A stretch of 64,000 nucleotides of DNA. Origin: Halorientalis sp. LT38. GTDB taxonomy: Archaea; Halobacteriota; Halobacteria; Halobacteriales; Haloarculaceae. The notes under the pieces are model-generated. The model was not told the DNA's origin. It saw nothing but the letters and a program-made list of their open reading frames with translations, and searched no databases. Location of the stretch: assembly GCF_037031225.1 (NCBI RefSeq), contig NZ_JAYEZN010000001.1:1922001-1986000 (forward strand). The letters are read 5' to 3'. Below, one piece after another: positions 4,676 to 47,876 of this stretch; the first letter of the stretch is position 1, and each line of letters begins with the position of its first letter. Position numbers and translations under genes: made by a program.

Positions 4676-4683
4676 AAATTTAA
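4676..4683 (+). promoter_or_regulatory. TATA-like box for the RecA-fold-like gene
   Basis: AAATTTAA stands 26-33 bases before the ATG at 4709, immediately after the stop codon of the preceding membrane gene, as expected for a leaderless haloarchaeal transcript. Confidence 0.55.
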
Positions 4684-4708
4684 CGCCGGCCCTCTGCGTT
4701 TGGCCGGC

Positions 4709-5287
4709 ATGGACTACGAACTCGCCATCGAGAACACGCCGGACGCGATCCCAGGGGGGACCGGGGTACTACTTCTGCACCCGAGTACCGGCGAGACGGA
4801 CCGCATCGACACCGACTTCCTCACGACCGACACCGACCACATGCTGATCATCTCGACCCGCACCACCGCCCGCGAGGTCGAGCAGAAACTGGAGTACTAC
4901 GACGTCGACGAAACCAACGCCACAATCCTCGACACCCTCTCCATCGAGCGCGGCTACACCCGCCGACCGACCGACAACGTCCGGTACGTCTCCTCGCCCG
5001 ACGACCTCTCGGGCATCGTCGAGGCGGCCCGCGAGTTCCTCGACACCCACGACGGGAAGCTCCGCGTCACCGTCGACTCGATCACCGAGATGGCCTACTA
5101 CGCCGACGAGGAGCGCGCCCGCGGCGCGGTCGCCGACCTGCTCGCACTGCTTTCCGAACACGACGCCGTCGGCCTCTTTCACCTCTCGCCGGAGGTCCAC
5201 GAGGACGCGGTCGTCGACGACTTCCGCGAGCTGTTCGACGGCGTCGTCGAACTGTCGGCCGACGGCACCGTCGAAAGCGTTTTCTGA
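4709..5287 (+). CDS. Conserved haloarchaeal protein with degenerate KaiC/RecA-like fold
   Basis: 192 residues. The opening IPGGTGVLLLHPSTGETDRIDTD-type stretch (near residues 13-30) sits where a RecA/KaiC Walker A loop would be, but no GxxxxGK[ST] is present. A later strand LRVTVDSITEMAYY occupies the Walker B position with Asp in place. I recall such proteins as a haloarchaeal family (DUF7090-like) of inactive RecA-superfamily members. The function is unknown. It is convergent with the DUF7089-like gene 3 bases away; the two neighbours are, to my memory, often kept together. The fold assignment is inference. Confidence 0.6.
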   Translation: MDYELAIENTPDAIPGGTGVLLLHPSTGETDRIDTDFLTTDTDHMLIISTRTTAREVEQKLEYYDVDETNATILDTLSIERGYTRRPTDNVRYVSSPDDLSGIVEAAREFLDTHDGKLRVTVDSITEMAYYADEERARGAVADLLALLSEHDAVGLFHLSPEVHEDAVVDDFRELFDGVVELSADGTVESVF

Positions 5288-5290
5288 CGG

Positions 5291-6082
5291 TCACGACAGT
5301 TTCTCGAAGGTCTTCCTGGCCCACTCGACGGCGTACTCCGGACCGGTCCGGGCGTACGCCGCCGTGTCCAGCGCGGCGAACGGCGACGGAATCTCCAGCC
5401 GGTCGTCCGCCGCGTGTTTCACGGCGCTGCAGGCCAGTTCCGCGGCGGTCGCGAACTCGGTCTGGCCCCGCGCGACCTCCGTCGAGAGGTCGCCGAGCCT
5501 GGGTTCGAGCCGCTCGCCGGCGTCGACCCACGCGTCGAACAGGTCGGGATGGTCGGTCTCCCAGTCGGCGAAGACCTCGCGGGTGTGCAGCCCGCAGTAC
5601 GCGGTGTAGAGCGCCGCTGCGAGCTGGTAGACGCCCGCCGGTTCGAGGGGGACGGCCGCGTCGAGGTCGGCGTACCGCGCTCCGAAGAACGCGAGGAAGG
5701 ACTCGGGGAGGTCGAGGCCGACTTCGACGAGCGCCTCTGCGATCAGGAAGCGGACGAAGGGGTCCGGCGAGGTGCGGAGCCGCGGTTTCACGAACACGAC
5801 TGGTGGGTCGGTCTGGCGGGTCCAGGCGACGCCGCCGTCGCCGGGGAGGCCGATCGTGAACTCGCTCCCGGCGTACTCGCGGAGCTGGTCGGGTGCGTCC
5901 GCCGGGAGCCACTCCGGCGGGTAACTGACGGGATCCAGACTCTCGACCAGCAGGCCGAGTTCCTCGGCGACAGCGGGGTCGAGCGTCTCGAAGTCCCGCT
6001 CGGTGTGCAGGACGAGCGCGTCGGGGGCGGACTCGTCGCGGACGGCGGCGAGGGCCCCGTCGAGGTCGCGCGACTCGAACAT
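5291..6082 (-). CDS. Conserved haloarchaeal protein, DUF7089-like
   Basis: 263 residues, soluble, with no signal peptide or clear catalytic motif. It is rich in aromatic and acidic residues: an N-terminal alpha/beta part (DALVLHTERDFETLDP...) is followed by a helical C-terminal half (VYQLAAALYTAYCGLHTREVF). I recognise it only as a conserved haloarchaeal protein of unknown role. Its ATG at 6082 shares bases with the TGA of a 29-residue membrane microprotein (ATGA overlap), so the two are very likely translated from one message. Confidence 0.65.
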   Translation of the reverse strand: MFESRDLDGALAAVRDESAPDALVLHTERDFETLDPAVAEELGLLVESLDPVSYPPEWLPADAPDQLREYAGSEFTIGLPGDGGVAWTRQTDPPVVFVKPRLRTSPDPFVRFLIAEALVEVGLDLPESFLAFFGARYADLDAAVPLEPAGVYQLAAALYTAYCGLHTREVFADWETDHPDLFDAWVDAGERLEPRLGDLSTEVARGQTEFATAAELACSAVKHAADDRLEIPSPFAALDTAAYARTGPEYAVEWARKTFEKLS

Positions 6083-6171
6083 CAGGCGAGCGCGGCGCTC
6101 GCGATCTGTGCGACGGCGAGGAGTGCGGTGACACCGATCGTCAGCAGGACGATCTTGGTTGCCTTGCTCAT
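6082..6171 (-). CDS. 29-residue single-helix membrane microprotein
   Basis: A short frame from the ATG at 6171 encodes 29 residues: a basic N-terminus (MSKATK) followed by one continuous hydrophobic helix ending in ALA. Its TGA overlaps the ATG of the downstream DUF7089-like gene, which argues for a real, translated cistron rather than chance. Codon third positions are G/C-rich like the neighbours. Haloarchaeal genomes carry comparable tiny membrane proteins of unknown role beside this gene family. It might anchor or regulate the downstream protein; that is inference. Confidence 0.6.
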   Translation of the reverse strand: MSKATKIVLLTIGVTALLAVAQIASAALA

Positions 6172-6206
6172 ACCCACGGCTTCCGCCAGCACGGATTTAA
6201 AACCCG

Positions 6207-7676
6207 CTATTCCGCCTCGGCGCTCCCGCCCACGTCGGCCCCGCGGGCGACCCCCTGCCACTTCCCCGTCCAGAAGCGGGCGGTGTTGACCGCCGCCTTG
6301 AGGTAGAAGTCGCCGATCAGCGCCGCGAAGACGGCGGGGAGGCCCCAGCCCAGTCCCGGCGCGACCGAGACCCCGGCGATAGTGACCCCGTAGCCGACCG
6401 GCAGCGCCAGCGCCGCGACCGGGAGCCTGAAGAGGTACGCGCCGGCGAACGTGCCGTAGAGCGGCCAGCGGGTGTCGCCCGCGCCGCGCAGGCTGCCGCG
6501 CATCGTCCGCGAGATCGAGAAGCCGGCGACGATTACGCCGAACACGCGGATGAACCGCACCGCGAGATCGGGGTACTGCGTCCCGAAGGCCAGCGCCACG
6601 GGGCGGGCCGCCACCACGAGGACCGCGCCGAACAGCAACTGGGTGAGCAGGGCGATCCGCATCGTCTGCCAGCCGTACTCGGTGGCTTCGTCGTGCTCGC
6701 CAGCGCCGACGGCCTGCCCGACGAGCGTGCTCGCGGCCGTCGCGTACCCCCAGGCCGGCATCAGCGCCAGCAGCATCACCCGGCGGCCGATGGCGTAGGC
6801 GGCCACGACGGGCGTCCCGAGCACGCCCAGCACGAACAGGAACGGGAACCGGCCGAACGTCTGGAGCAGGCGCATCCCCGCAAGCGGGAGGCCGACGCGG
6901 ACGATCTCCCGACAGAGCGAGAGGTCGACCTGCGGTCCCGCGAGCGGCAGGCGGACGACGTACCGCCCCGACACCAGGAGCCCCAGGAAGACCGTCGCCG
7001 CGAGCGTATTGGCGATCGCGGTCCCCCAGGCGGCCCCGGCCACCCCCAGTTCGGGGAACGGTCCCCAGCCGAAGATGAGAACGGCGTTGAGGACGACGTT
7101 CGTCGGCAGCGTCAGCAGGCGGACGTACATGGGCGTCCGCGTGTCGGCGCTCCCCGCCAGCGCCCGCGCGGCGATCATGCTCCAGAACCGGAAGGAAAGC
7201 GAGAGCATGACGATCTGCAGGTAGATCGCCCCCAGTTCGATCGTCCGCGGGTCGTCGGTCAGCACGTCGAGCATCGGTCCGGCGTAGACCCAGGTGATCA
7301 CGGTCAGCGGGAGCGAGACGAGCAGCGAGAGCCACAGCGACTGCTTGACCGCCAGGTCCGCCCGGTCGGGCTGGTCGGCCCCCTGGAGCCGCGAGACGAC
7401 GCTGATGGTCCCCGAAGACAGCGCCAGCGAGAGCCCAAAGCCCAGGAAGTAGTACTGAAAGCCCAGTTCGAGGGCGGCGATGGCCGCGTCCCCGACGGCG
7501 ATGCCGACCATCAGGAAGTCCGCGACCCGCAACAGGACCCGGAGGCCACCCGTGACCATGACCGGAAGGGCCAGGTCGAACGCTTCGGTCCCCTTCCGCC
7601 GGTCGACCAGCCCCAGCCGGGCCAGCAGTGCGGGGAACCCCAGCAACGCGTCGCGCACGGCGGCACGAATACCCAT
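6207..7676 (-). CDS. MATE family multidrug/sodium efflux transporter
   Basis: 489 residues with about twelve hydrophobic helices in two similar halves, typical of MATE (NorM/DinF-like) antiporters that export organic cations in exchange for Na+ or H+. Typical MATE features are the N-terminal LALPVMVTGGLRVLLRVADFLMVG helix pair region, the FQYYFLGFGLSLALSSG stretch and, in the second half, GLPLAGMRLLQTFGRFPF followed by GQAVGAGEHDEATEYGW. The C-terminal tail is short and polar. The gene is monocistronic; the histidine kinase at 7873 diverges from it across a 196-base AT-rich gap. Substrate is unknown. Confidence 0.9.
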   Translation of the reverse strand: MGIRAAVRDALLGFPALLARLGLVDRRKGTEAFDLALPVMVTGGLRVLLRVADFLMVGIAVGDAAIAALELGFQYYFLGFGLSLALSSGTISVVSRLQGADQPDRADLAVKQSLWLSLLVSLPLTVITWVYAGPMLDVLTDDPRTIELGAIYLQIVMLSLSFRFWSMIAARALAGSADTRTPMYVRLLTLPTNVVLNAVLIFGWGPFPELGVAGAAWGTAIANTLAATVFLGLLVSGRYVVRLPLAGPQVDLSLCREIVRVGLPLAGMRLLQTFGRFPFLFVLGVLGTPVVAAYAIGRRVMLLALMPAWGYATAASTLVGQAVGAGEHDEATEYGWQTMRIALLTQLLFGAVLVVAARPVALAFGTQYPDLAVRFIRVFGVIVAGFSISRTMRGSLRGAGDTRWPLYGTFAGAYLFRLPVAALALPVGYGVTIAGVSVAPGLGWGLPAVFAALIGDFYLKAAVNTARFWTGKWQGVARGADVGGSAEAE

Positions 7677-7843
7677 CTACCGCGACGTCGACCGGGAGTC
7701 CCGTGGACCTTTCGCCGCGCTCGTCGGGTGTCGGGGATTTAGTTAGAGAGTTGCTACCGCGACTCATACGTTCAGGTAGTGACTTATTACTCCGCGATTA
7801 TTTTCAGGCGTTTCGATTCATTAGCTCAAACAGTACCAATCCT

Positions 7844-7850
7844 GATATAG
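7844..7850 (+). promoter_or_regulatory. TATA-like box of the 7TM histidine kinase
   Basis: GATATAG lies 23-29 bases before the ATG at 7873 within an AT-rich intergenic stretch (7740-7872) that separates the divergent MATE and kinase genes. I see no other gene in this stretch. Confidence 0.5.
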
Positions 7851-7872
7851 AGGTAGTCACAAGGAATGGGGT

Positions 7873-9600
7873 ATGTTCCCGGGGCCGGAACTGTACGCGG
7901 CGGTTCTGTTTCTCACAGTGCTGCCTGCGGCGTATCTGATTCGCGCGGTGTGGAGCAGGCTCGACCGGCCGAGCGGTCGCTGGCTCGTCGTGACGCTCGT
8001 TGGCATGAGCGGCTGGTCTGTCTCCTGGGCGCTGATGTTGCTGTTCGAAGGGTATCGGTTGTCGCTGTGGAGTTTCAACGTCGTGGTGCTGTTCGCGAGC
8101 GTGACGACTATCGGCTGGTTGTTCGTGACGATCGAGTACACCTGGCAGAAGCAGGTCGAACACCGCATCGTGGCACCGTTCCTGATCGTTCCCGCGGTGG
8201 TGCAGGTGCTCATCTGGACGAACCCGTTCCACGAACTGGTCTGGCGCCCTGGCACGTTCGTCGACGCCCAGGGGGTGCTCCATCCGGTCCACGGCCTCGG
8301 GTTCTATCTCCACATCGGCTACTCGTATCTGCTCGTCGTGGCGGGACTGGTGCTGTTGACCGTCGCCTTCGTCGAGCGAGAGGGACTGTATCGAAAGCAG
8401 GCGTTCCTGTTGCTGCTCGGTGGCTTCATTCCGACCGTGTTTCCGATCGCGTTCGTCTTCGGGATGATCCCGACGGACTACCTGAACCCGACACCGTTGG
8501 GTTTCCTGCTCGGGACGTCTATTTGGGGGTGGGCACTCTTCCGCTACCAGTTGCTCAAAACGGTCCCGGTCGCACGCCGGATGGTGCTCGCCGAGATGAG
8601 CGAGGGCGTCCTGATCGTGGACGACGGGAACGTCGTCACGGACGCGAACGATGCGCTCCACGAGATGTTCGACCTCGAATCCGATCCCACGGGCAAGCCG
8701 CTCGAGTCGGTCCTCGAACCGTACGAGGGACTTCGCTCGCTGATCCAGTCCGGGACGTTCTCCGATGAACGCATCACGGTCGAGCTCAACGGGGAACCGC
8801 GCCACCTCACCGTGAGTAAAAGCTCCGTCACCCACGACGGCGGGACCGGTGGCTGGGTCCTCGTCTTCAACGATCGAACGGCGCTGTTCCGGTACGAAGA
8901 GGACCTCGAACTACTGAAGGGCGTCCTCGCACGTGTCCTCCGGCACGACATCCGGAACAAACTGAACGTCATCCGCGCCCACGGTGAACTGCTCGCCCAG
9001 CAGACAGACGGGCAGCACGCGAAGCAGGCTCGCACTGTCGTCCAGACCTCTGACGCCGTCATCGAAACAGCAGAGAAGGCAAAGGCCATCGAGTCGCTGG
9101 TCGAGGCGGACCGGCCGCTCTACGACACCGATCTCGTCCACGTGGCCGGACGGACCGTCGACTGGGCCACGGAGCAGTACCCGGACGTCGATATCGAGTT
9201 CGACGCCCCGGATCAGGCGTGGGTGCGTGCGGACGAACGGCTCGCGCTCGGGATCCGGAGCCTGGTCGAAAACGGGATCGAACACAACGATAGCGACGCT
9301 CCGATGGTGCGAGTCGCCATCGAGCGGACCGACGACACCGTCACGCTGACTGTCGACGACAACGGCTCAGGAATCGACCGCTACGAGCAGCGCGTGTTCG
9401 AGGGCGAAGCGGTCGATCAACTCAACCACAGTACGGGCCTCGGCCTCTGGCTGGTGAACTGGGTGGTTCGCAACTCGAACGGGGCCACCACCGTCACCCA
9501 GACGGAGACCGGGACCCGATTCGTGGTGACGTTGGAGCGTCGCTTCCCCTCTGAGTCGCGCGCAGTCGACGCGTGCGAATCGGAACCTGGCTCGCGTTAA
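7873..9600 (+). CDS. Membrane histidine kinase: 7TM sensor, PAS, HisKA, HATPase
   Basis: 575 residues. Seven hydrophobic helices fill residues 1-215 (the 7TM histidine-kinase N-terminal domain type). A PAS-like domain follows (about 235-340: MSEGVLIVDDGNVVTDAND...). The phosphoacceptor box is RHDIRNKLNVI with His358. The ATPase domain has the N box at NGIEHND (about Asn467), G1 DDNGSGID (about 495-502) and G2 STGLGLWL. No receiver domain or response regulator is adjacent, so it is an orphan kinase of the kind common in haloarchaea. The signal may be a membrane or small-molecule cue; nothing shows which. The TATA box at 7844 supports the chosen start. Confidence 0.9.
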   Translation: MFPGPELYAAVLFLTVLPAAYLIRAVWSRLDRPSGRWLVVTLVGMSGWSVSWALMLLFEGYRLSLWSFNVVVLFASVTTIGWLFVTIEYTWQKQVEHRIVAPFLIVPAVVQVLIWTNPFHELVWRPGTFVDAQGVLHPVHGLGFYLHIGYSYLLVVAGLVLLTVAFVEREGLYRKQAFLLLLGGFIPTVFPIAFVFGMIPTDYLNPTPLGFLLGTSIWGWALFRYQLLKTVPVARRMVLAEMSEGVLIVDDGNVVTDANDALHEMFDLESDPTGKPLESVLEPYEGLRSLIQSGTFSDERITVELNGEPRHLTVSKSSVTHDGGTGGWVLVFNDRTALFRYEEDLELLKGVLARVLRHDIRNKLNVIRAHGELLAQQTDGQHAKQARTVVQTSDAVIETAEKAKAIESLVEADRPLYDTDLVHVAGRTVDWATEQYPDVDIEFDAPDQAWVRADERLALGIRSLVENGIEHNDSDAPMVRVAIERTDDTVTLTVDDNGSGIDRYEQRVFEGEAVDQLNHSTGLGLWLVNWVVRNSNGATTVTQTETGTRFVVTLERRFPSESRAVDACESEPGSR

Positions 9601-9601
9601 C

Positions 9602-10549
9602 TTACTCGAACCCCCACCCAAAGAAGACGCTCGAACAGGTACAGGCCGTGTCGAACCCGCACTCGGGACACTGCCACTTCGATGGCGACGTCTCCTCGAA
9701 CTCCGTCAGCACCTCCGCGCCGTAGTCGTCCGCGAGTTTCAGGTTCCCGTCGTTCTCCCGTTTCCACATCATCGATACCACCGGCGGATGTTCGGCCAGA
9801 TACGCCATCGCGTGGGTCGCGAGCGCCGCGCCGATACCCTGCCCCTGGTGCTCCGGATGGACTGCGATGAGTTTGTACATCCCCAGCGGGAAGTGTTCCT
9901 CCCGAATCGGCGTCCGAGCGAGGAGTTCGTCAAGGGACACCGGAAGGGCGTCCGCGAACGACGCCCGGTCGAACAGCCCAGTGACGGAGAACCCGAGCAC
10001 GGTGTACTCCCTGTTGAGGTGCGTCGGGTCGGTGAGTTCGCGGACCCCCTCACCCTCGACGTAGACGTAGAGGTGCCTGTCGTCGGGTTCGACGTACCGC
10101 GTGGCGAGTTCCGCGACGGTGGGTGCGTAGTCGGGACTCAACTCGGTCTCGCTGATCCCGACGATCTGTGCCCCAGCCGTCCGCCCCGATTCGTACTGTT
10201 CGAGCCGTTCCGCGAGTCGCCGGAGCGATTCGGGCCTGGTCGCCGCGCGGGTCACGACCCCCGTCACGTCGTCCTGGATATGGTACGAGTTGGCCTCGTG
10301 CGTCAGCCGGACCGTCGTCGTCTCGGTGCGCCACTGGATGTCGCCGTCCTTCCCGGGCAGTCGCGTCACGTCTCCGTCGGCCTCGAGTTCCGAGAGCACC
10401 GCGTCGATGGTCTCGGACGTCGCGGCGAGCATCGCGCTGATCTCCTCCGTCGAGACCGGCCCGCTCGCCCGCGCCAGCATCCCCTGCACCGCTTCGCGCA
10501 GTCTGTCCGCCGATCCCACATCGCCCACGTGCCGATGTCTAGATGACAT
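9602..10549 (-). CDS. Winged-helix, GNAT acetyltransferase and zinc-finger fusion protein
   Basis: 315 residues. An N-terminal helix-turn-helix-like segment (about 13-75: VSTEEISAMLAATSETIDAVLSELE) is followed by a linker and a GNAT domain (about 150-275). The GNAT coenzyme A loop reads HPEHQGQGIGAALATHA. The C-terminus holds a small metal site, CPEC followed by CTC. A DNA-binding module joined to an acetyltransferase suggests a regulator or an enzyme acting on DNA-bound protein; this is inference. The ATG at 10549 follows a minus-strand TATA-like TTTTAATTA (10571-10579). It converges on the histidine kinase with one base between the stops. Confidence 0.82.
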   Translation of the reverse strand: MSSRHRHVGDVGSADRLREAVQGMLARASGPVSTEEISAMLAATSETIDAVLSELEADGDVTRLPGKDGDIQWRTETTTVRLTHEANSYHIQDDVTGVVTRAATRPESLRRLAERLEQYESGRTAGAQIVGISETELSPDYAPTVAELATRYVEPDDRHLYVYVEGEGVRELTDPTHLNREYTVLGFSVTGLFDRASFADALPVSLDELLARTPIREEHFPLGMYKLIAVHPEHQGQGIGAALATHAMAYLAEHPPVVSMMWKRENDGNLKLADDYGAEVLTEFEETSPSKWQCPECGFDTACTCSSVFFGWGFE

Positions 10550-10570
10550 CGGTCCGCAATTAGACGCGGA

Positions 10571-10579
10571 TAATTAAAA
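10571..10579 (-). promoter_or_regulatory. TATA-like box of the winged-helix/GNAT gene
   Basis: Minus-strand TTTTAATTA, 22-30 bases ahead of the ATG at 10549. It supports a leaderless transcript and the chosen start. Confidence 0.55.
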
Positions 10580-10660
10580 CTGTATGTGGTGTGGAAACAT
10601 TCATCGGGCACTCCCCCTGAACCCCTCCCAGCGGTCGCGATGGCCGATGCCGGCGACCGG

Positions 10661-10906
10661 TCAGGGGATCAACTGCTCGCCGTCGTCGTCGTAGACGGCG
10701 ATGGCTTCGACCGGGCAGGAACGGGCGGCGAACTTCGCGTCCAGTTCCTCGTCGGCGGGTATCTCGCGGACGAACAGGTCCGGGTCGGTCTCCTCGCTGT
10801 CGGCCAGGACGGCCTTGCCGGCGTCGGTGTCCTTCTCGAAGGCGTCCCACTCGGCGACGCACTGGAACATCCCGATACAGGTGTCGCGGTCGAACTCGAT
10901 TCGCAT
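10661..10906 (-). CDS. Small single-cluster ferredoxin (3Fe-4S type)
   Basis: 81 residues. Cysteines are Cys10, Cys16 (CIGMFQC) and Cys64 (SCPVEAI). The usual second cysteine of a CxxCxxC motif is replaced, leaving three ligands, the pattern of 3Fe-4S ferredoxins that often serve cytochrome P450s or other redox enzymes. The long acidic stretch between the cysteine groups (residues 20-60) is a haloarchaeal insertion. No redox partner gene is adjacent; the upstream gene in the same direction is a CheC-like protein 45 bases away. Cluster type is inferred from cysteine count. Confidence 0.85.
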   Translation of the reverse strand: MRIEFDRDTCIGMFQCVAEWDAFEKDTDAGKAVLADSEETDPDLFVREIPADEELDAKFAARSCPVEAIAVYDDDGEQLIP

Positions 10907-10951
10907 GTGCGAGGGTTCGAGCGACGACCGCTTGAGTGTGGCGACGGCGGG

Positions 10952-11617
10952 CTAGACGAGTTCGGAGAAGTCCGCGGGGGCGGTGTCGGCCTCGGCGATC
11001 GAGTCCACGTCGATGCCGTGGATCAGGTCGACCAGCGGCTTCAGTTCGGGGAAGGTGTAGCAGGTCAGCGAGAAGTCCACGTCGGCGGCGGTGATCTTCG
11101 AGTCGACGACGAACACGAGGTCCGTGTCCGGCCACTCCGTGATCTCGGCCAGCATCGCGTCGCTGTCACCGAAGGCGAAGTGGGGCGGGGAGTGGGCGAT
11201 GGTCGTCCCGAGGACGTTCGCCCAGCCGTCGATGAACGCGGAGGTCAGGATGTTCCCCACCTCCTGGATGGCCGACCGCTGCATGTCCGTGAAGCCACCG
11301 GCGTCGCCGGCCTCGGGCCCCTGGCCGAGCATGGCGTTTGCCAGTCGCCTGGCCTCGGTCTGGGAGACCAGAAAGAGGAGGTACCCGTACGGGATGTCCT
11401 CGAGTTCGGTGTAGATTCCCACGTAGGAATCTGAGCTAGAGGCCGTGCTGAGGTGGGTGCCGACGTCGTCGAAGTCGAGGAAGTTCAGCTTCGAGACGGC
11501 GGCGCTGGTCTCCAGCCCGCTCATCTGGTGGAGGTCGTCGGCGACGGTCGCGGCCCCCTCCTTGGCCAGCCCGTTGAACAGGTGGAGCTTCCGCACGTCG
11601 ACCTGCAGGGAGTCCAT
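10952..11617 (-). CDS. CheC-like chemotaxis phosphatase
   Basis: 221 residues from the ATG at 11617. An upstream in-frame start would add a poorly conserved 21-residue tail. CheC proteins dephosphorylate CheY-P or act through CheD in archaeal and bacterial chemotaxis. One phosphatase centre is recognisable, RSAIQEVGNILTSAF, with the Glu and Asn of the ExxN signature. The corresponding first site near residues 12-30 (NGLAKEGAATVADDL) lacks the Asn, so this protein likely has a single active centre. No other che or fla genes lie in the window, so its partner is elsewhere. Confidence 0.78.
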   Translation of the reverse strand: MDSLQVDVRKLHLFNGLAKEGAATVADDLHQMSGLETSAAVSKLNFLDFDDVGTHLSTASSSDSYVGIYTELEDIPYGYLLFLVSQTEARRLANAMLGQGPEAGDAGGFTDMQRSAIQEVGNILTSAFIDGWANVLGTTIAHSPPHFAFGDSDAMLAEITEWPDTDLVFVVDSKITAADVDFSLTCYTFPELKPLVDLIHGIDVDSIAEADTAPADFSELV

Positions 11618-41802: not shown

Positions 41803-41872
41803 CGGCGGCGCTAGGGACGCGACGGGTAAATACCTGTTCGCACGCCAGCGGGCGGGTGCGGGTCGGGCAGCG

Positions 41873-42976
41873 TCACTGGCTCGGGGCAGTCCCCGGCGGC
41901 TCGTAGACGTACACGAGCGCGTCCGTGACCACGAGGTATCGGCCGCGGTCCGGAACGTGCAGGACCCGCGTCTCGCTATCGATCGCGGCGTCGACCAGCG
42001 CGTCGAGCGAGGCGACGGCGAAAGTGGGACGCGACGCGACGTCGCCCGCGAGCGCCCCCGTGGTGATCCAGTCGTCGTAGGCGGCGCGGTCCGCGGCGAA
42101 GGCGAGGCGTTCGCGCTCTTCCGCCGACACCGCGAGGCGGCCCGTCAGCTGGAGGGTCCCCAGCCCGACGAGTCCGGCGCTTCCGACCAGCAGGAGCAGG
42201 ACGGAACCCACGCCACGCACCGGCCCGTAGGTCGCGGGGACCGTCGCGGTGTCCGTCGTCTCGACGGCAGTCGTCTCCCGGTCCCCCTGGGAGACTGCGT
42301 AGGTGGCACCCCCGAGACCGAGGTGGAGTTCGTAGGCCTCGGTCAGGTCGACCGGCCGCCCCTCGATGGTCCCCCGCACGCGAACGGTCGTCCGGACGGT
42401 CGCCTCGGGGCGGCCGGGGTCGCCGCCCAGGTCCGCGTCGATGCGGTCGGCGCGGTCGGCCAGCGCCGAGACGTTCACGCCGAACGGGACCCTGACCACA
42501 CCGTCGCCGGCGACGGTCGTCGATTCGCTCCCGGCGAGCGGGCGCGTCTCGCGCCAGTACTCGGTCTCGCCCGTGCGGTCGACCGAGCGCGTCACGAGTT
42601 CGGCCCGGGTCGTCACCGTCACCGGGTCGTCGTGCGGCGAGTCGTAGCGGTAGACGAGCGTCCCGTTCAGGACCGGGGCGACGCTCGTGAAGTAGACCGA
42701 CCGGTCCCGCAGCGTCGTCCCCGCGGGGTACAGGTCCGTGGACCGCGCGACCGTCGCCCGGTGGTCGTAGCCCCCGCTGCGCTCGAAGAGGACCTCGGTG
42801 CGCCGTTCCTCTGCCGTGCCCGGGGCGACGTGCGTGTCGAAGACGAGCAGACCGCCCCCGGCGAGGGCGAGGACACCGAGAACGAGAAGGAGCGTCCGCC
42901 AGTCGGCGAGCGCCACCCGCAATCGGTCCCATCGGTCGACGGCCGCAGAGTCGGCGGTCGACGGCGGCGGCGTCAT
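41873..42976 (-). CDS. DUF5305-type membrane protein (fibre operon)
   Basis: 367 residues from the ATG at 42976, which overlaps the signal peptidase stop (ATGA). One helix near the N-terminus (about 27-46), a large extracellular part (about 50-245) with strand-rich repeats (VYFTSVAPVLNGTLVYRYDSP, VRVPFGVNVSALADRADRID) and a second helix near 255-285 (VLLLLVGSAGLVGLGTL), followed by a cytoplasmic tail with a strand-rich domain. I recall this as a DUF5305-like family found beside S26 peptidases in haloarchaea. A role in assembling surface proteins is inferred from the operon. Confidence 0.68.
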   Translation of the reverse strand: MTPPPSTADSAAVDRWDRLRVALADWRTLLLVLGVLALAGGGLLVFDTHVAPGTAEERRTEVLFERSGGYDHRATVARSTDLYPAGTTLRDRSVYFTSVAPVLNGTLVYRYDSPHDDPVTVTTRAELVTRSVDRTGETEYWRETRPLAGSESTTVAGDGVVRVPFGVNVSALADRADRIDADLGGDPGRPEATVRTTVRVRGTIEGRPVDLTEAYELHLGLGGATYAVSQGDRETTAVETTDTATVPATYGPVRGVGSVLLLLVGSAGLVGLGTLQLTGRLAVSAEERERLAFAADRAAYDDWITTGALAGDVASRPTFAVASLDALVDAAIDSETRVLHVPDRGRYLVVTDALVYVYEPPGTAPSQ

Positions 42977-44088
42977 CGCACCCACCGCCGGAGTCGGACG
43001 CGAAGCGGCACGGGGCGAGTTCGGGCCGCCAGCCCGCCGCGAGCGACGAGGACTCGCCCGACGAGCAAGACGGGGCCGGCCACCAGCGCGTCGACGACCA
43101 GGATCGGGAGCCACGGATGGATCCCGCGGAGCGCGGCCAGGACGGACGTCGGCAGCACGGCGAGATAGCGGTCCTCGACGAGCGCGTAGCGGTAGTAGCC
43201 CGTCGCCGGTGGCGCGGTGATCGAGACCGTGGCGTTCGTCGCAGTGGTGCCCTCGACGGAAACGTGGTCGGGCGTCACCGCCACGGCGTCGTCGGGCGCT
43301 TCGAGGAAGGCCACGACGGGTACGAGCCCCGGGTTCCGCAGCGAGTAGTTCGTCGTCTCGGTCGTCCCGGCTTCGATCACGCGCGGCCCGGGCGCGTCGG
43401 TGTCGGCGCTGACCACGTCGAGTCGCGTCGCACCGGCCGGGAGCACCACGCTCGCGGTCGTCACGGCGACGACGAGGACGACCAGCGCGAGGACGAGCGC
43501 GTTCCCGTCCAGCGACGGCCCAGCGCCCTCCCGCGTCGGGCGCCGGTCCGCCCGGACCGTCCCGACCAGGTAGAGGGCGACACCGAGGACGCCGAGGACG
43601 AGAACGAGTCCGGCGTGGGCTCCGAGTCCCAGCGCGGTGGCGACCGGGGCCGCGAGCCCGCGGATACCAGTCACGACTCGGCCGACACCGGGGAGCACCA
43701 GGACGTCGCCGCCGACGGCGAGGGCGGTCGCGACGACCTGTTCCTCGCGGACCGGCGGCTCGACGCTCTCCTGGTCGGTCACCGCGTTCGCGTCCCCCTT
43801 CGTGACGTAGCCCGCGTCGGTCACCGCGACGACCCGGTGCGTCGTCAGCCCCCCTCCCTGGAGCCGTTCGGCTCGATAGGTCACCACGTCGCCGGGTTCG
43901 ACGGGGCCCGCGAGCGCGGCCGGGACGGCGACGAAGCCGTCGCCCGGCTGGAGGGTCGGCGCCATGCTCCCGGTCTCGACGTAACTCAACAGCACGGGCT
44001 GCCCGAGCACCAGGCCGAGCAGGACGGCGACCGCCAGGCAGGCGACGAGGAGTTGTCCGCCGCGCACCAGCAGGCGACGCGCGGTCAC
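42973..44088 (-). CDS. Signal peptidase I (S26, archaeal Ser-His type) with Ig-like extension
   Basis: 371 residues from a GTG at 44088 that overlaps the upstream gene stop (GTGA). An N-terminal anchor helix is followed by SYVETGSMAPTLQPGD with catalytic Ser41, then LTTHRVVAV with His84 in place of the bacterial Lys, and YVTKGDANAVTD (Asp99). This is the archaeal/eukaryotic Sec11 architecture. After further helices, a strand-rich Ig-like domain (about 215-300: NYSLRNPGLVPVVAFLE, VSITAPPATGYYRYAL) and a C-terminal helix pair follow, making it more than twice the size of a minimal signal peptidase. It would process the two secreted proteins upstream, like SipW. Confidence 0.85.
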   Translation of the reverse strand: MTARRLLVRGGQLLVACLAVAVLLGLVLGQPVLLSYVETGSMAPTLQPGDGFVAVPAALAGPVEPGDVVTYRAERLQGGGLTTHRVVAVTDAGYVTKGDANAVTDQESVEPPVREEQVVATALAVGGDVLVLPGVGRVVTGIRGLAAPVATALGLGAHAGLVLVLGVLGVALYLVGTVRADRRPTREGAGPSLDGNALVLALVVLVVAVTTASVVLPAGATRLDVVSADTDAPGPRVIEAGTTETTNYSLRNPGLVPVVAFLEAPDDAVAVTPDHVSVEGTTATNATVSITAPPATGYYRYALVEDRYLAVLPTSVLAALRGIHPWLPILVVDALVAGPVLLVGRVLVARGGLAARTRPVPLRVRLRRWVR

Positions 44089-44561
44089 GACGGCGCCTCC
44101 GCGGGACCAGTACAGGCGACGGTCACCGTGCGAGTCGCGCGGATTTCCGTGTCCGGGCCGGTCGCGACGATCGATAGCGTCCACTCCTCCTGGAACTGCC
44201 CGCGACCGCCGCAGACGACCGCGGCGGTGACCGTGGCGGTCTCGCCGACCGACAGCGGGCGCACCCACTCGTCGGTCCCCGAGCGCGGCGGCCGGGCGTC
44301 CGGATCCGCGATGGTGACCCGAACCGTATCCAGGTCGGCGGGCAGCCGGTTGTGGAGCCGCAGCAGCCCCACCTCCCGCTCCCGGCCGTTGGCCAGCGGC
44401 GGGTCCAGCGGCTCGAGGCCGAGGGACGCCTCGGCGTCGGTGCCGGTCGCGATCGACGCCGCGCGGTCGGCGCTCACGGCCGTCGTCCCGGCCGAGCCGG
44501 TGACGGCGAGTGCGACCGCCAGCACGACGCACGCGACGCCGAGCCGTGCGAGTGCAGTCAC
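44085..44561 (-). CDS. Secreted TasA-like (DUF1102-type) small protein
   Basis: 158 residues with a signal peptide (LARLGVACVVLAVALAVTGSAG) followed by TTAVSADRAASIATGTDAEASLGLEPL. That ADRAASI...D..A.LGL pattern recurs in the neighbour at 44621-45766 and resembles the mature start of TasA/SipW-dependent proteins. The rest is a strand-rich domain with two Cys (VVCGGRG and VTVACTG) that could form a disulfide. It starts 59 bases after the larger fibre gene and overlaps the signal peptidase start. Exact fold is inferred. Confidence 0.68.
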   Translation of the reverse strand: MTALARLGVACVVLAVALAVTGSAGTTAVSADRAASIATGTDAEASLGLEPLDPPLANGREREVGLLRLHNRLPADLDTVRVTIADPDARPPRSGTDEWVRPLSVGETATVTAAVVCGGRGQFQEEWTLSIVATGPDTEIRATRTVTVACTGPAEAPS

Positions 44562-44620
44562 GGTCGGGTCCGGACGACCGAGGTCGTCAGTGCCGGGCCG
44601 GGCCGGCGTGCATTCCGCAT

Positions 44621-45766
44621 TCAGTCGTCACCGACCGCTTCGGCGTTCAGGAAGCCGTTCTCCATGAGCTGGCGGTCTGTCGGCTCCATGTTGTCCGGGT
44701 CGGTGACGAACGAGTCGCCCGGGAAGAAGTTCGCGTCCGGGAAGGCGGTCTCGTCGACGTTCCAGTCGGCCCCGGGGAAGAACGTGCTGTCCGGGAAGAA
44801 CGCGCTGTCAGGGAAGAATATGCTGTCGGGGAAGAACGTGCTGTCCGGGAACGCCGTCGCCGGCGTCACCACGACCCCGTTCGCCATGACGGTCGCCTCG
44901 GCGTCGCCGAGGACGACGCCGTCGGCGGCGACCGTCTCACCGGGGACGTACACGAGGTCGTCAGCGGCGAAGGCGTCCGAATCGAACAGCGTGTCCGGGA
45001 ACCAGGTCTCGCCCGGCTGGAACGCCGCGTAATCCGTGTAGTACGCCTTCGGCACGGCCGAAGCCGGGAGCGCGACGTAGCTGTCGCGGAGGTAGGCGTC
45101 CGCGGTCTTGCTGTAGAGCGCGCCGTCCGAGTTCACGAAGGCCGTCCCGTTGACGAGCAGCGAGGAGTTCTCGCGGTCGAATTGCGCCGCTTCGACGGGC
45201 GCGTCGCCGCCATCGCCGACGATGGCGTTCGCGTTGATACGCACGGTTTCGAGGAGCGTCGTCCCGACGTCGACGCCGCGCGTGTCGATACCGATCCCCA
45301 CGGTGACGGACTCGCCCGGTGCGAGGGCGACCGCGCCCTCGGGGCCGGCGTCGAGCGGCTGGAAGGATCCGAAGCCGGTGATGGCCGTCCCGTCACCGCC
45401 GTCGGAATCGGGGGCGTAGAAGACGACCTCCTCGACGCCGTCTTCGAGCCAGACGCCGACGGTCTGGGTCCCCTGGTTCGTCACCGTGAACACGTCGTCG
45501 ATGCGCGTGCGAGCCTCCGTCCCGACGCCGGTGTCTCCGGCGATATCGAGACTCAGGACGCCGTTCGCGTCGACGGTCGCGTACGCGCCGTTGGGGCCGT
45601 CCGAGGGTGCCAGACCGAGCACCTGTTGGTCGTCGTTGACGACTTCGACTGCGGCCGCCCTGTCGGCGGTGATCGCGGTGAACGCGCCGGTTGCCGTGAC
45701 CGCTGCCACGACGACGGCGAGTCCGAGCGTTGCCACTGCGAGGTTCCGTGTATAGCGTGTACTCAT
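44621..45766 (-). CDS. Secreted TasA-like protein with FFPDS hexapeptide repeats
   Basis: 381 residues from the ATG at 45766. Signal region LAVATLGLAVVVAAVTATGAF (about 8-28) is followed by TAITADRAAAVEVVNDDQQVLGL, the mature-start pattern of SipW/TasA-type proteins. A strand-rich body (about 55-250) has QGTQTVGVWLEDG and DPVR-like segments. Residues about 300-350 carry tandem TFFPDS-like hexapeptides (five near-perfect copies, then ETAFPDANFFPGDS). The C-terminus is acidic. It is the first gene of the operon and the likely major subunit, secreted by the signal peptidase encoded downstream. Confidence 0.72.
   Translation of the reverse strand: MSTRYTRNLAVATLGLAVVVAAVTATGAFTAITADRAAAVEVVNDDQQVLGLAPSDGPNGAYATVDANGVLSLDIAGDTGVGTEARTRIDDVFTVTNQGTQTVGVWLEDGVEEVVFYAPDSDGGDGTAITGFGSFQPLDAGPEGAVALAPGESVTVGIGIDTRGVDVGTTLLETVRINANAIVGDGGDAPVEAAQFDRENSSLLVNGTAFVNSDGALYSKTADAYLRDSYVALPASAVPKAYYTDYAAFQPGETWFPDTLFDSDAFAADDLVYVPGETVAADGVVLGDAEATVMANGVVVTPATAFPDSTFFPDSIFFPDSAFFPDSTFFPGADWNVDETAFPDANFFPGDSFVTDPDNMEPTDRQLMENGFLNAEAVGDD
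44781..44852 (+). repeat. Four 18-bp tandem repeats encoding FFPDS hexapeptides
   Basis: Units of 18 bp (GAACGTGCTGTCCGGGAA type, read on the plus strand) follow each other four times with one to five base changes per copy. On the minus strand they encode the [T/I/A]FFPDS hexapeptides of the fibre protein. The changes sit mostly at third codon positions and at the variable sixth residue, so the protein repeat is under selection. Confidence 0.85.
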
Positions 45767-45857
45767 CGTTTCCCCCGCCGAGACCCCATCAGCAGGGACC
45801 GACCCACCGGCCCGTCCGAATCGTCTCGACTGGTTACCGTCAAGAAGCCAGCTGCGC

Positions 45858-45907
45858 ATATATAAGTTGTCGTACACTTGACGTTCAGACGTTCACGGCG
45901 TGAACGT
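45858..45907 (-). promoter_or_regulatory. Promoter and candidate operator of the fibre operon
   Basis: The minus-strand TATA-like CTTATATATG (45857-45866) lies about 92 bases before the ATG at 45766. Just upstream are three half-sites: a direct copy ACGTTCAG (45881-45888) and a perfect inverted repeat ACGTTCAC-GGC-GTGAACGT (45889-45907). Its position over the BRE region suits a repressor or activator, most simply the FilR1-like regulator encoded at 45979-46773. Confidence 0.7.
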
Positions 45908-45978
45908 TTCGGCAGAGTGCGTCCCGTGAGGCTCTCCGGACCGATCGCTCGATCCAGTGTTACTCCACGAAGAACCGA

Positions 45979-46773
45979 TTACGGAGAAATATCAGCTGCC
46001 GTCACTTTCGTCGCCGCGGCCCGGTACTCGTCGAGCGTCCCGGTCGCCCAGTCGTGGAGCCGGGGGTCGGTCGCCTCCAGAAGCGCCTGTGATCGCCCCC
46101 GGTCGTCGTCGATGCCGAGCGAGATCAGGTCGTCCGCGACGGCGAGGATGTGCGGGATCTCGCCGTCGTAACGGAAGACGGTGGCCGCCGACGACGCTGT
46201 CAGGTCCCGGAGTTTCGCGGCGAGATCCGGGTCGCTCGCGACGACGGAGAGGACCTCGGCGGTGACGATCATCTCCAGGGTCAGTTCCCCGTCCATGACG
46301 CGTCGGTGGACGGTATCGACGATCGCCGGGGTGAACGCGTGGGAGAGCATCGCCAGATCGGTGGCCTCGCGCACGGTTTCGTGGGCGCGCCGGAGCGCGG
46401 CCTGGGGGTCCGATCGCTCGGGCGTGACCACCGTCGCGTCCGCCAGCCAGGTCACGTCCAGTCCCAGATCCGCGAGAGGGAGCCACTCGAGCACGTCTCC
46501 GAGGGTCGCCGCGGCCGTGAGCCGGTCGTCGAAGTCCGCCAGGGCATCGGCCACGACCTCACCCATCGGCGTCAGCGCGTACGCGTCGTCTCGCTGCCGC
46601 ACCCAGCCGAACTCGACCAGATCCGCGAGCACGCGGCCCGCGGTCACCCGGTTGACGTCGGCCTCCCGCTGGAGCGTCCGCCTGTCCCGCGGACCGGCGG
46701 CCAGCGTCTCGAACAGCCGAATCCGGTTGCGCGACCCGCCGAAGAACTCGAGGGCGTCGAACACGTCGGTCAT
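45979..46773 (-). CDS. Winged-helix regulator of the FilR1/DUF1724-like group
   Basis: 264 residues. The N-terminal winged helix (about 12-75) reads GSRNRIRLFETLAAGPRDRRTLQREADVNRVTAGRVLADLVEFGWV. The rest has a middle helical domain with the FilR1-type DPQAALRRAHETVREATDLAMLSH and LEMIVTAEVLSVV segments, likely a small-molecule or ligand-binding part. It lies directly upstream of, and in the same direction as, the fibre operon, 212 bases from its first gene. Control of that operon through the ACGTTCAC palindrome is inference. Confidence 0.82.
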   Translation of the reverse strand: MTDVFDALEFFGGSRNRIRLFETLAAGPRDRRTLQREADVNRVTAGRVLADLVEFGWVRQRDDAYALTPMGEVVADALADFDDRLTAAATLGDVLEWLPLADLGLDVTWLADATVVTPERSDPQAALRRAHETVREATDLAMLSHAFTPAIVDTVHRRVMDGELTLEMIVTAEVLSVVASDPDLAAKLRDLTASSAATVFRYDGEIPHILAVADDLISLGIDDDRGRSQALLEATDPRLHDWATGTLDEYRAAATKVTAADISP

Positions 46774-46865
46774 CTCTCTGGAACGGGTATGGGAACCGAC
46801 TTGAGTCTACCCGCTCGGCCGCGAGTGCGGCGGTACGTCGCGGCCGCAGAGCGACGACAGCCCCG

Positions 46866-47876
46866 TCAGTCCTCGACTTTCACCAGCTGCTTGCCGACGT
46901 TGACGCCCTCGAAGAGCCCGAGGAACGCCTCGGGCATGTTCTCGAAGCCCTCGGTGACGGTCTCGCGGTACTGCACGTCGCCGGCCTGGACCCACTCGGC
47001 CAGCTGTTCCGTGGCCTCGCCGAACCGGCCGGCCCAGTCCCGGACGAGCAGCCCCTCGACGCGAGCGCGGGTCTCGATCAGGCCCGCCAATTTGCGGGGC
47101 CCCATCGGCTGCTCGGTGGCGTTATAGAGGGAAATCTGGCCGCAGATCGCCACGCGGGCGCGGACGTTCAGGTGGGCGAACGCGGCGTCCGTGATCTCCC
47201 CGCCGACGTTGTCGAAGTAGACGTCGACGCCGTCGGGACAGGCCTCGCCGACCGCGGCGTAGAGGTCGTCGGTCTCTTTGTAGTTGATCCCCGCGTCGAA
47301 GCCCAGGTCCTCGGTCAGCCAGTCGATCTTCTCGTCGGCACCCGCGATGCCGACGACGCGACAGCCCGCGAGCTTGCTGATTTGGCCGACGACGGAGCCG
47401 ACCGCGCCCGCCGCACCGGAGACGAGGACGGTGTCGCCGGGGTCCGGTTCGGCGACTTCCAGCGTCCCGAAGTAGGCCGTCCGGCCGGGCATCCCCAGCA
47501 CGCCCAGCGCGGTCGAGACGGGCGCGAGGTCCGGATCGACGGGCTGGAGCGCGTCGCCGTCCGCGACGCTGTACTCGGCCCACCGGAGGTTCCCCGTGGC
47601 GACGTCGCCTTCCTCGAAGTCGGGGTGGTTCGATTCGACCACGTCACCGACCACGCCGGCTTTCATCACGTCGCCCACGTCCCACGGCTCGGCGTAGGAC
47701 TCGGCGTCGCGCATCCGGCCGCGCATGTACGGGTCGACCGAGAGGTAGCGGGACTCGAGCAGGACCTCCCCGTGATCGGGTTCGGGCACGTCGCCCTCGC
47801 GCAACTCGAAGTTGTCCATCGTCGGTTCGCCGGTCGGGCGACTCTCCAGGATCCACTGCCGGTTGGTGCCAGCCAT
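46866..47876 (-). CDS. NADPH-dependent medium-chain oxidoreductase (zinc-independent, curcumin reductase-like)
   Basis: 336 residues. The MDR pattern is visible: ..SVDPYMRGRMRDAESYAEPWDVGDVM near residue 45, LGMPGRTAYFGTLEVAEPDPGDTVLVSGAAGAVGS with the nucleotide-binding loop AAGAVGSVVGQ, and GLDVYFDNVGGEITDA. It lacks the zinc cysteines of alcohol dehydrogenases, placing it with curcumin/2-alkenal and prostaglandin reductase-like enzymes that reduce activated double bonds. The gene is divergent from a VOC-family gene 110 bases away. Substrate is unknown. Confidence 0.88.
   Translation of the reverse strand: MAGTNRQWILESRPTGEPTMDNFELREGDVPEPDHGEVLLESRYLSVDPYMRGRMRDAESYAEPWDVGDVMKAGVVGDVVESNHPDFEEGDVATGNLRWAEYSVADGDALQPVDPDLAPVSTALGVLGMPGRTAYFGTLEVAEPDPGDTVLVSGAAGAVGSVVGQISKLAGCRVVGIAGADEKIDWLTEDLGFDAGINYKETDDLYAAVGEACPDGVDVYFDNVGGEITDAAFAHLNVRARVAICGQISLYNATEQPMGPRKLAGLIETRARVEGLLVRDWAGRFGEATEQLAEWVQAGDVQYRETVTEGFENMPEAFLGLFEGVNVGKQLVKVED

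Follow-up and report, generated by a model that had tools for sequence, protein, structure and literature searches.

A five-gene block of Halorientalis sp. LT38 that probably encodes a Tafi/Taf-type fimbria

Introduction

In the tapA-sipW-tasA system of Bacillus, TasA assembles by a donor-strand mechanism and the tapA and sipW genes show a codon overlap (PMC9674648, PMC10151520). Fibres of the Tafi/Taf family are already known in haloarchaea, where a Tafi pilus structure (PDB 9P0A, Natrinema sp. J7-2) and the Taf family models of NCBIfam are available; the statement of the original prediction that no such haloarchaeal system has been described therefore does not stand.

In this study, a stretch of 64,000 nucleotides of Halorientalis sp. 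LT38 (contig NZ_JAYEZN010000001.1, positions 1,922,001 to 1,986,000), hereafter the window, was analysed. It carries a block of five genes that is very likely a compact, divergent cassette for a Tafi/Taf-type haloarchaeal fimbria. The useful outcomes are a survey of related gene neighbourhoods and the recognition of a discrete cassette, both of which bear on how archaeal TasA-like donor-strand fibres get started, anchored and assembled.

Results and Discussion

Gene organisation of the block

All five genes, designated E, A, B, C and D, lie on the minus strand (Table 1). E is placed 212 bases ahead of A, the gap between A and B is 59 bases, and the last three genes overlap by 4 bases each (GTGA for B/C and ATGA for C/D). 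The original prediction had given the same five genes and the same overlaps, which were confirmed by the gene models, and its span (41873-46773) departs by no more than about 100 bases from the limits of the 5.0-kb inserted block, which runs from 41855 to about 46865.

Table 1. Features of the five-gene block (positions refer to the window)
Feature	Position	Strand	Description
D	41873-42976	-	DUF5305 membrane protein; PF17231, 160.4 bits; present in 117/127 loci; two membrane segments flanking a large exported domain
C	42973-44088	-	archaeal/ER-type signal peptidase; TIGR02228 above cut-off; SEC11A/C match
B	44085-44561	-	exported Ig-like protein, TafC N-terminal-like; TafC 54 bits, below cut-off
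A	44621-45766	-	exported TasA/Tafi-like pilin; DUF1102 above cut-off; TafE 43 bits, below cut-off
E	45979-46773	-	FilR1-type winged-helix regulator; HVO_A0261_N and FilR1_middle
Candidate operator palindrome	45889-45907	no strand	ACGTTCAC-GGC-GTGAACGT, perfect
TATA-like box	45859-45865	-	TTATATA; sequence, motif match only
Inserted five-gene block	41855-46865	no strand	empty site in four same-genus genomes

Peptidase C and membrane protein D

Judged by its sequence, C is a Ser-His signal peptidase of the archaeal/ER type. It exceeds the cut-off of TIGR02228 (58.4 against 51.85 bits), its residues S41, H84, D99 and D105 are invariant among 19 aligned sequences, and its profile finds human SEC11A/C as the nearest solved relatives. 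Beyond the catalytic part, C contains further membrane-like segments; a conserved extracytoplasmic region (about residues 217-320) is also present and appears Ig-like according to the original prediction and a weak Cep192_D3 match. The earlier assignments of C as an archaeal Ser-His signal peptidase, of D as a DUF5305-type protein and of E as a FilR1-type regulator are all upheld by the profile matches.

Fold and family of protein A

A has a TasA/Tafi-like beta-sandwich core (residues 29-190) behind an N-terminal signal segment, and the core is followed by a low-complexity tail (residues ~196-381). The AlphaFold model has good confidence over roughly residues 50-185 and very low confidence past 190. 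As the original prediction anticipated, the core resembles solved TasA-like archaeal pilins, the Tafi pilus 9P0A being ranked first (rmsd 3.0 over 121 residues, 20% identity) with a Z of 9.4, which exceeds generic Ig/MSP folds (about 7) only modestly, as unrelated Ig-like chains reach about 7. Later ranks included the Pyrobaculum bundling pilus 7UEG (Z 7.8), FimA (7.5) and the Sulfolobus thread 7PNB (6.9). The fold class is secure, and the link to Tafi is strengthened by a phmmer sequence match between A and 9P0A (E 7e-5) and by the gene order. At the level of families, A lies just above the Pfam cut-off for DUF1102 and below that of NCBIfam TafE (43 against 155 bits). The viral structure library gave no meaningful match.

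None of the block proteins reached the curated cut-off of the NCBIfam TafA, TafC, TafE or TafF models. Since the solved Tafi pilin also misses the TafE cut-off (77 of 155 bits), the coverage of these models seems limited to one sub-lineage; as the cut-offs were missed, we call the block Tafi-like and assign no Taf equivalog. The Tafi identity of the block rests on the PDB title of 9P0A, the NCBIfam models and the gene order.

N-terminus and processing of protein A

A common ADRAA-type pattern, noticed in the original prediction, is present in both secreted proteins (FTAITADRAAAVEVVNDDQQVLGL in A and TTAVSADRAASIATGTDAEASLGL in B). The motif G-A-F-x4-A-x-R is family-wide and extends beyond A and B, with A28, F29 and R36 invariant in an alignment of 36 A-type sequences. 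ADRAA had been regarded as the mature start; by analogy with TasA, however, the cut is expected about 6-7 residues earlier, at TG-A-F, so that it would precede ADR and leave ADRAA within the mature N-terminal strand of A. We predict the cut at A28/F29, because these residues are family-wide and because the site at which SipW cuts TasA is comparable, its P2' residue being F (PMC10269814). The donor strand of TasA itself comprises residues 28-38 (PMC9674648). In the structure library, the 9P0A chain comprises 188 of 215 residues, and residue 215 is included in the alignment; provided that the model is contiguous, this count would be consistent with a mature N-terminus near F28.

The FFPDS tail and protein B

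The FFPDS repeats reported for A are real: four FPDS hexapeptide units, accompanied by degenerate copies, lie within residues 196-381, and 0 of 10,000 tail shuffles reached four. The tail has roughly 185 residues, is as long as the core and, according to the model, is probably disordered. Searches in 391 genomes returned nothing but short matches of the repeat type, several of which lay in lipoprotein-like proteins, and the repeats were therefore rejected as a unique feature or a known domain. Repeats like FFPD(S/G) or FPGD(S/T) occur in haloarchaeal proteins with lipoprotein-type signals; loci L207, L212 and L215 encode haloarchaeal proteins of 690-790 residues that combine such signals with long FFPDS / WFPGDT hexapeptide runs. 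By the pattern used, no other ORF in the 140 Tafi-type loci has FFPD(S/G) or FPGD(S/T) repeats. An adhesive role for the tail of A is a guess.

B has no match in Pfam, and its similarity to TafC (54 bits, cut-off 410) concerns the N-terminal part of that model. It is modelled as an Ig sandwich (pLDDT 82.9), for which the best structural matches are generic Ig domains, including those of pilus chaperones. Two Cys residues (117 and 150) are conserved in the alignment.

Neighbourhood survey

A homologue of C was found in 99 of 145 relatives, representing 38 of 51 genera. In addition, 140 loci were fetched by homology to C, and 127 of these contain C with enough flanking sequence on either side; as the loci were picked via C, the following counts describe the company of C, and a few genomes are in both sets. 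Proteins of the A/B type lie within 4 kb of C in 124/127 loci and a DUF5305 protein is encoded in 117/127, in 94 of them directly adjoining C on the same strand. The C and D families thus nearly always accompany A/B-type proteins, including the solved Tafi pilin gene, and the conservation of the cluster in other haloarchaea on which the original prediction had been made to depend was borne out for pilin, C and D. Canonical Taf loci, in which TafA, TafC, TafE and TafF exceed their cut-offs, contain C and D of the same type, and in a genome encoding the 9P0A pilin (identical at 177/177 compared residues) the order is pilin, A-like protein, C and D. A same-type peptidase and a DUF5305 protein encoded with a pilin, which is a criterion that we defined here from the loci, are found together in the block. 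The idea of a fibre system that encodes a peptidase for itself is therefore retained, on the strength of the core fold of A and the co-occurrence of pilin, C and D, but its nearest relative is Tafi/Taf and not Bacillus TasA.

Several variants of these neighbourhoods were seen. In several related loci a rhomboid-like membrane protein is encoded ahead of C, as in the Tafi-type loci L107 (6970-7887) and L139 (6894-7799), where it directly precedes the peptidase. Helix-turn-helix proteins adjoin the Taf clusters of L089 (5281-5841) and L127 (1711-2295); that of L127 matches DUF7344, that of L089 is similar by eye, and these possibly represent the usual Taf-cluster regulator in place of FilR1. Shorter C homologues form a deep, well-supported side branch (L099, L100, L101, L102 and L060 4886-5920) and also have pilin-like and DUF5305 neighbours.

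Further clusters were identified in the genome of Halorientalis sp. LT38. A second Tafi-type cluster (L014, G000:C1:2300000-2314000, 4677-11566) encodes a TafC-like protein, a C homologue, a pilin-like protein and an A-like protein of 594 residues; a DUF5305 gene was not found there. Two camelysin-type clusters (L012 3657-9540 and L013 4776-11941) possess their own signal peptidase and several 'LGTSAxFSDTESF'-type exported proteins, one of which, when tested, matched the cognate-SipW signal model TIGR04088. A whole-genome search with PF12389 matched three places, all outside the window.

Regulator E and the upstream region

E exceeds the cut-offs of PF25213 (HVO_A0261_N; 88.1 bits) and PF08350 (FilR1_middle; 81.6 bits, cut-off 27). 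It is one of two FilR1 proteins of the genome, and its relatives within the genus are 29-36% identical and located elsewhere. The regulator predicted for this system is indeed adjacent and within the same inserted block, but as a conserved partner it does not hold, an E-type regulator being encoded near C in only 5/127 loci.

The gap between E and A has a G+C content of 0.59, compared with 0.69 for the window. Its palindrome is the sole occurrence in the window at up to 2 mismatches, and 5 of 100 shuffles have one; the palindrome core CGTTCACNNNGTGAACG is present once in the 3.58-Mb genome and in none of the other fetched loci. Binding of E at this palindrome is put forward as a hypothesis. 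The TATA-like box lies ~93 bases upstream of the start codon of A and 23 bases downstream of the palindrome. No bacterial-type promoter or terminator was found, a result that is uninformative for archaea.

Origin of the block

In four same-genus genomes the block is absent and the flanking genes, encoding an M50 protease and an NADP-dependent oxidoreductase, adjoin; homology breaks at 41854/41855 and at 46860-46872. This comparison included four genomes of the genus and left out three others. The C protein of the window groups apart from the C proteins of its own genus in a quick tree, which had modest support and biased composition. Loss of the block in the same-genus relatives would give the same pattern, but its gain by transfer is the simpler reading, and this copy of the block was probably imported. 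No recombinase gene was detected inside the block. A viral or plasmid origin was considered and rejected, as one weak partial hit to a viral contig and only partial matches to haloarchaeal plasmids were obtained, with no sign of a phage element.

Proposed mechanism and alternative explanations

The fibre reading of the block is well supported, and we propose the following course of assembly. A and B would be exported by Sec, and C would remove the signal segment beside the conserved A-F. The freed N-terminal strand (FTAITADRAAAVEVV) would then enter the beta-sandwich of the next subunit by donor-strand exchange, as in TasA, so that A would polymerise without an ATPase or usher. B, encoded by a gene that overlaps that of the peptidase just as tapA does with sipW, would serve as a cap, adapter or initiator. 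C and D would keep subunits at the membrane by means of their extracytoplasmic domains, A would present its FFPDS tail for contact, either all along the fibre or at the tip, and E would govern the promoter ahead of A, perhaps via the palindrome. A bolder version, which we consider doubtful, is a Tafi cassette that is self-contained and moves horizontally, in which the disordered FFPDS tail of the single pilin is exposed on every subunit and the Ig-like region of C and the DUF5305 protein form a processing-coupled assembly platform that replaces chaperone and usher. The peptidase with an added Ig-like region and the DUF5305 membrane protein are a near-universal pair and, according to the survey, likely assembly factors, a role for which the compact cassette of five genes offers a convenient test case.

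The product may also be a short or tip structure, or there may be none, because a single core pilin is fused to a long tail and the block encodes neither the small separate pilin nor the rhomboid-like protein that many relatives have. An alternative that we judge unlikely is that A and B form no polymerising fibre and are a monomeric or short surface adhesin pair, with an FFPDS adhesive tail on the pilin-like domain of A and C as the dedicated peptidase. The absence of a separate small pilin, the disordered tail equal to the core in length and the occurrence of FFPD(S/G)-type hexapeptides otherwise in lipoprotein-like proteins, not in pilins, would suit such a pair; however, long-tailed A-like proteins also occur in loci holding clear pilins, and A keeps a donor-strand segment with A28-F29 and R36. 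Still less probable is that A is a tip or accessory subunit of fibres from the second Tafi-type cluster (C1:2304677-2311566) and is merely processed by C. That cluster does supply a second C homologue with pilin-like neighbours, yet the block is a discrete insertion that encodes both a C and a D, and the two C proteins share only 42% identity.

A different question concerns E, which could lie beside the operon by chance and play no part in it, an explanation that is compatible with a fimbrial function of A-D. The location of E within the insertion, in the same orientation as A and shortly ahead of it, the unique palindrome between them and the presence of only two FilR1 genes in the genome argue for a role, whereas the rarity of E-type genes near C argues against one; on balance, a chance association is a reasonable possibility, though not the one we expect.

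Comparison with known systems

The bundling pili of Pyrobaculum calidifontis (7UEG) and the threads of Sulfolobus (7PNB) share a donor-strand beta-sandwich pilin with the block, but are farther from it than Tafi. The tapA-sipW-tasA system of Bacillus is similar in (i) the dedicated ER-type peptidase encoded with exported fibre proteins, (ii) the codon overlap of tapA-sipW, which that of B and C resembles, and (iii) the TasA-like donor-strand fold class. It differs in that, at E<=1, A and B match neither PF12389 nor TIGR04088, the model of the cognate-SipW signal, and the block has an extra Ig-like peptidase region, a DUF5305 protein and an archaeal regulator. The Tafi/Taf systems (9P0A; TafA/C/E/F) have the pilin-like core, the G-A-F-x4-A-x-R N-terminus, a peptidase of the same architecture as C and a DUF5305 protein in the cluster; unlike them, the block combines one pilin-like protein bearing an FFPDS tail with a short TafC-like B and a FilR1 regulator.
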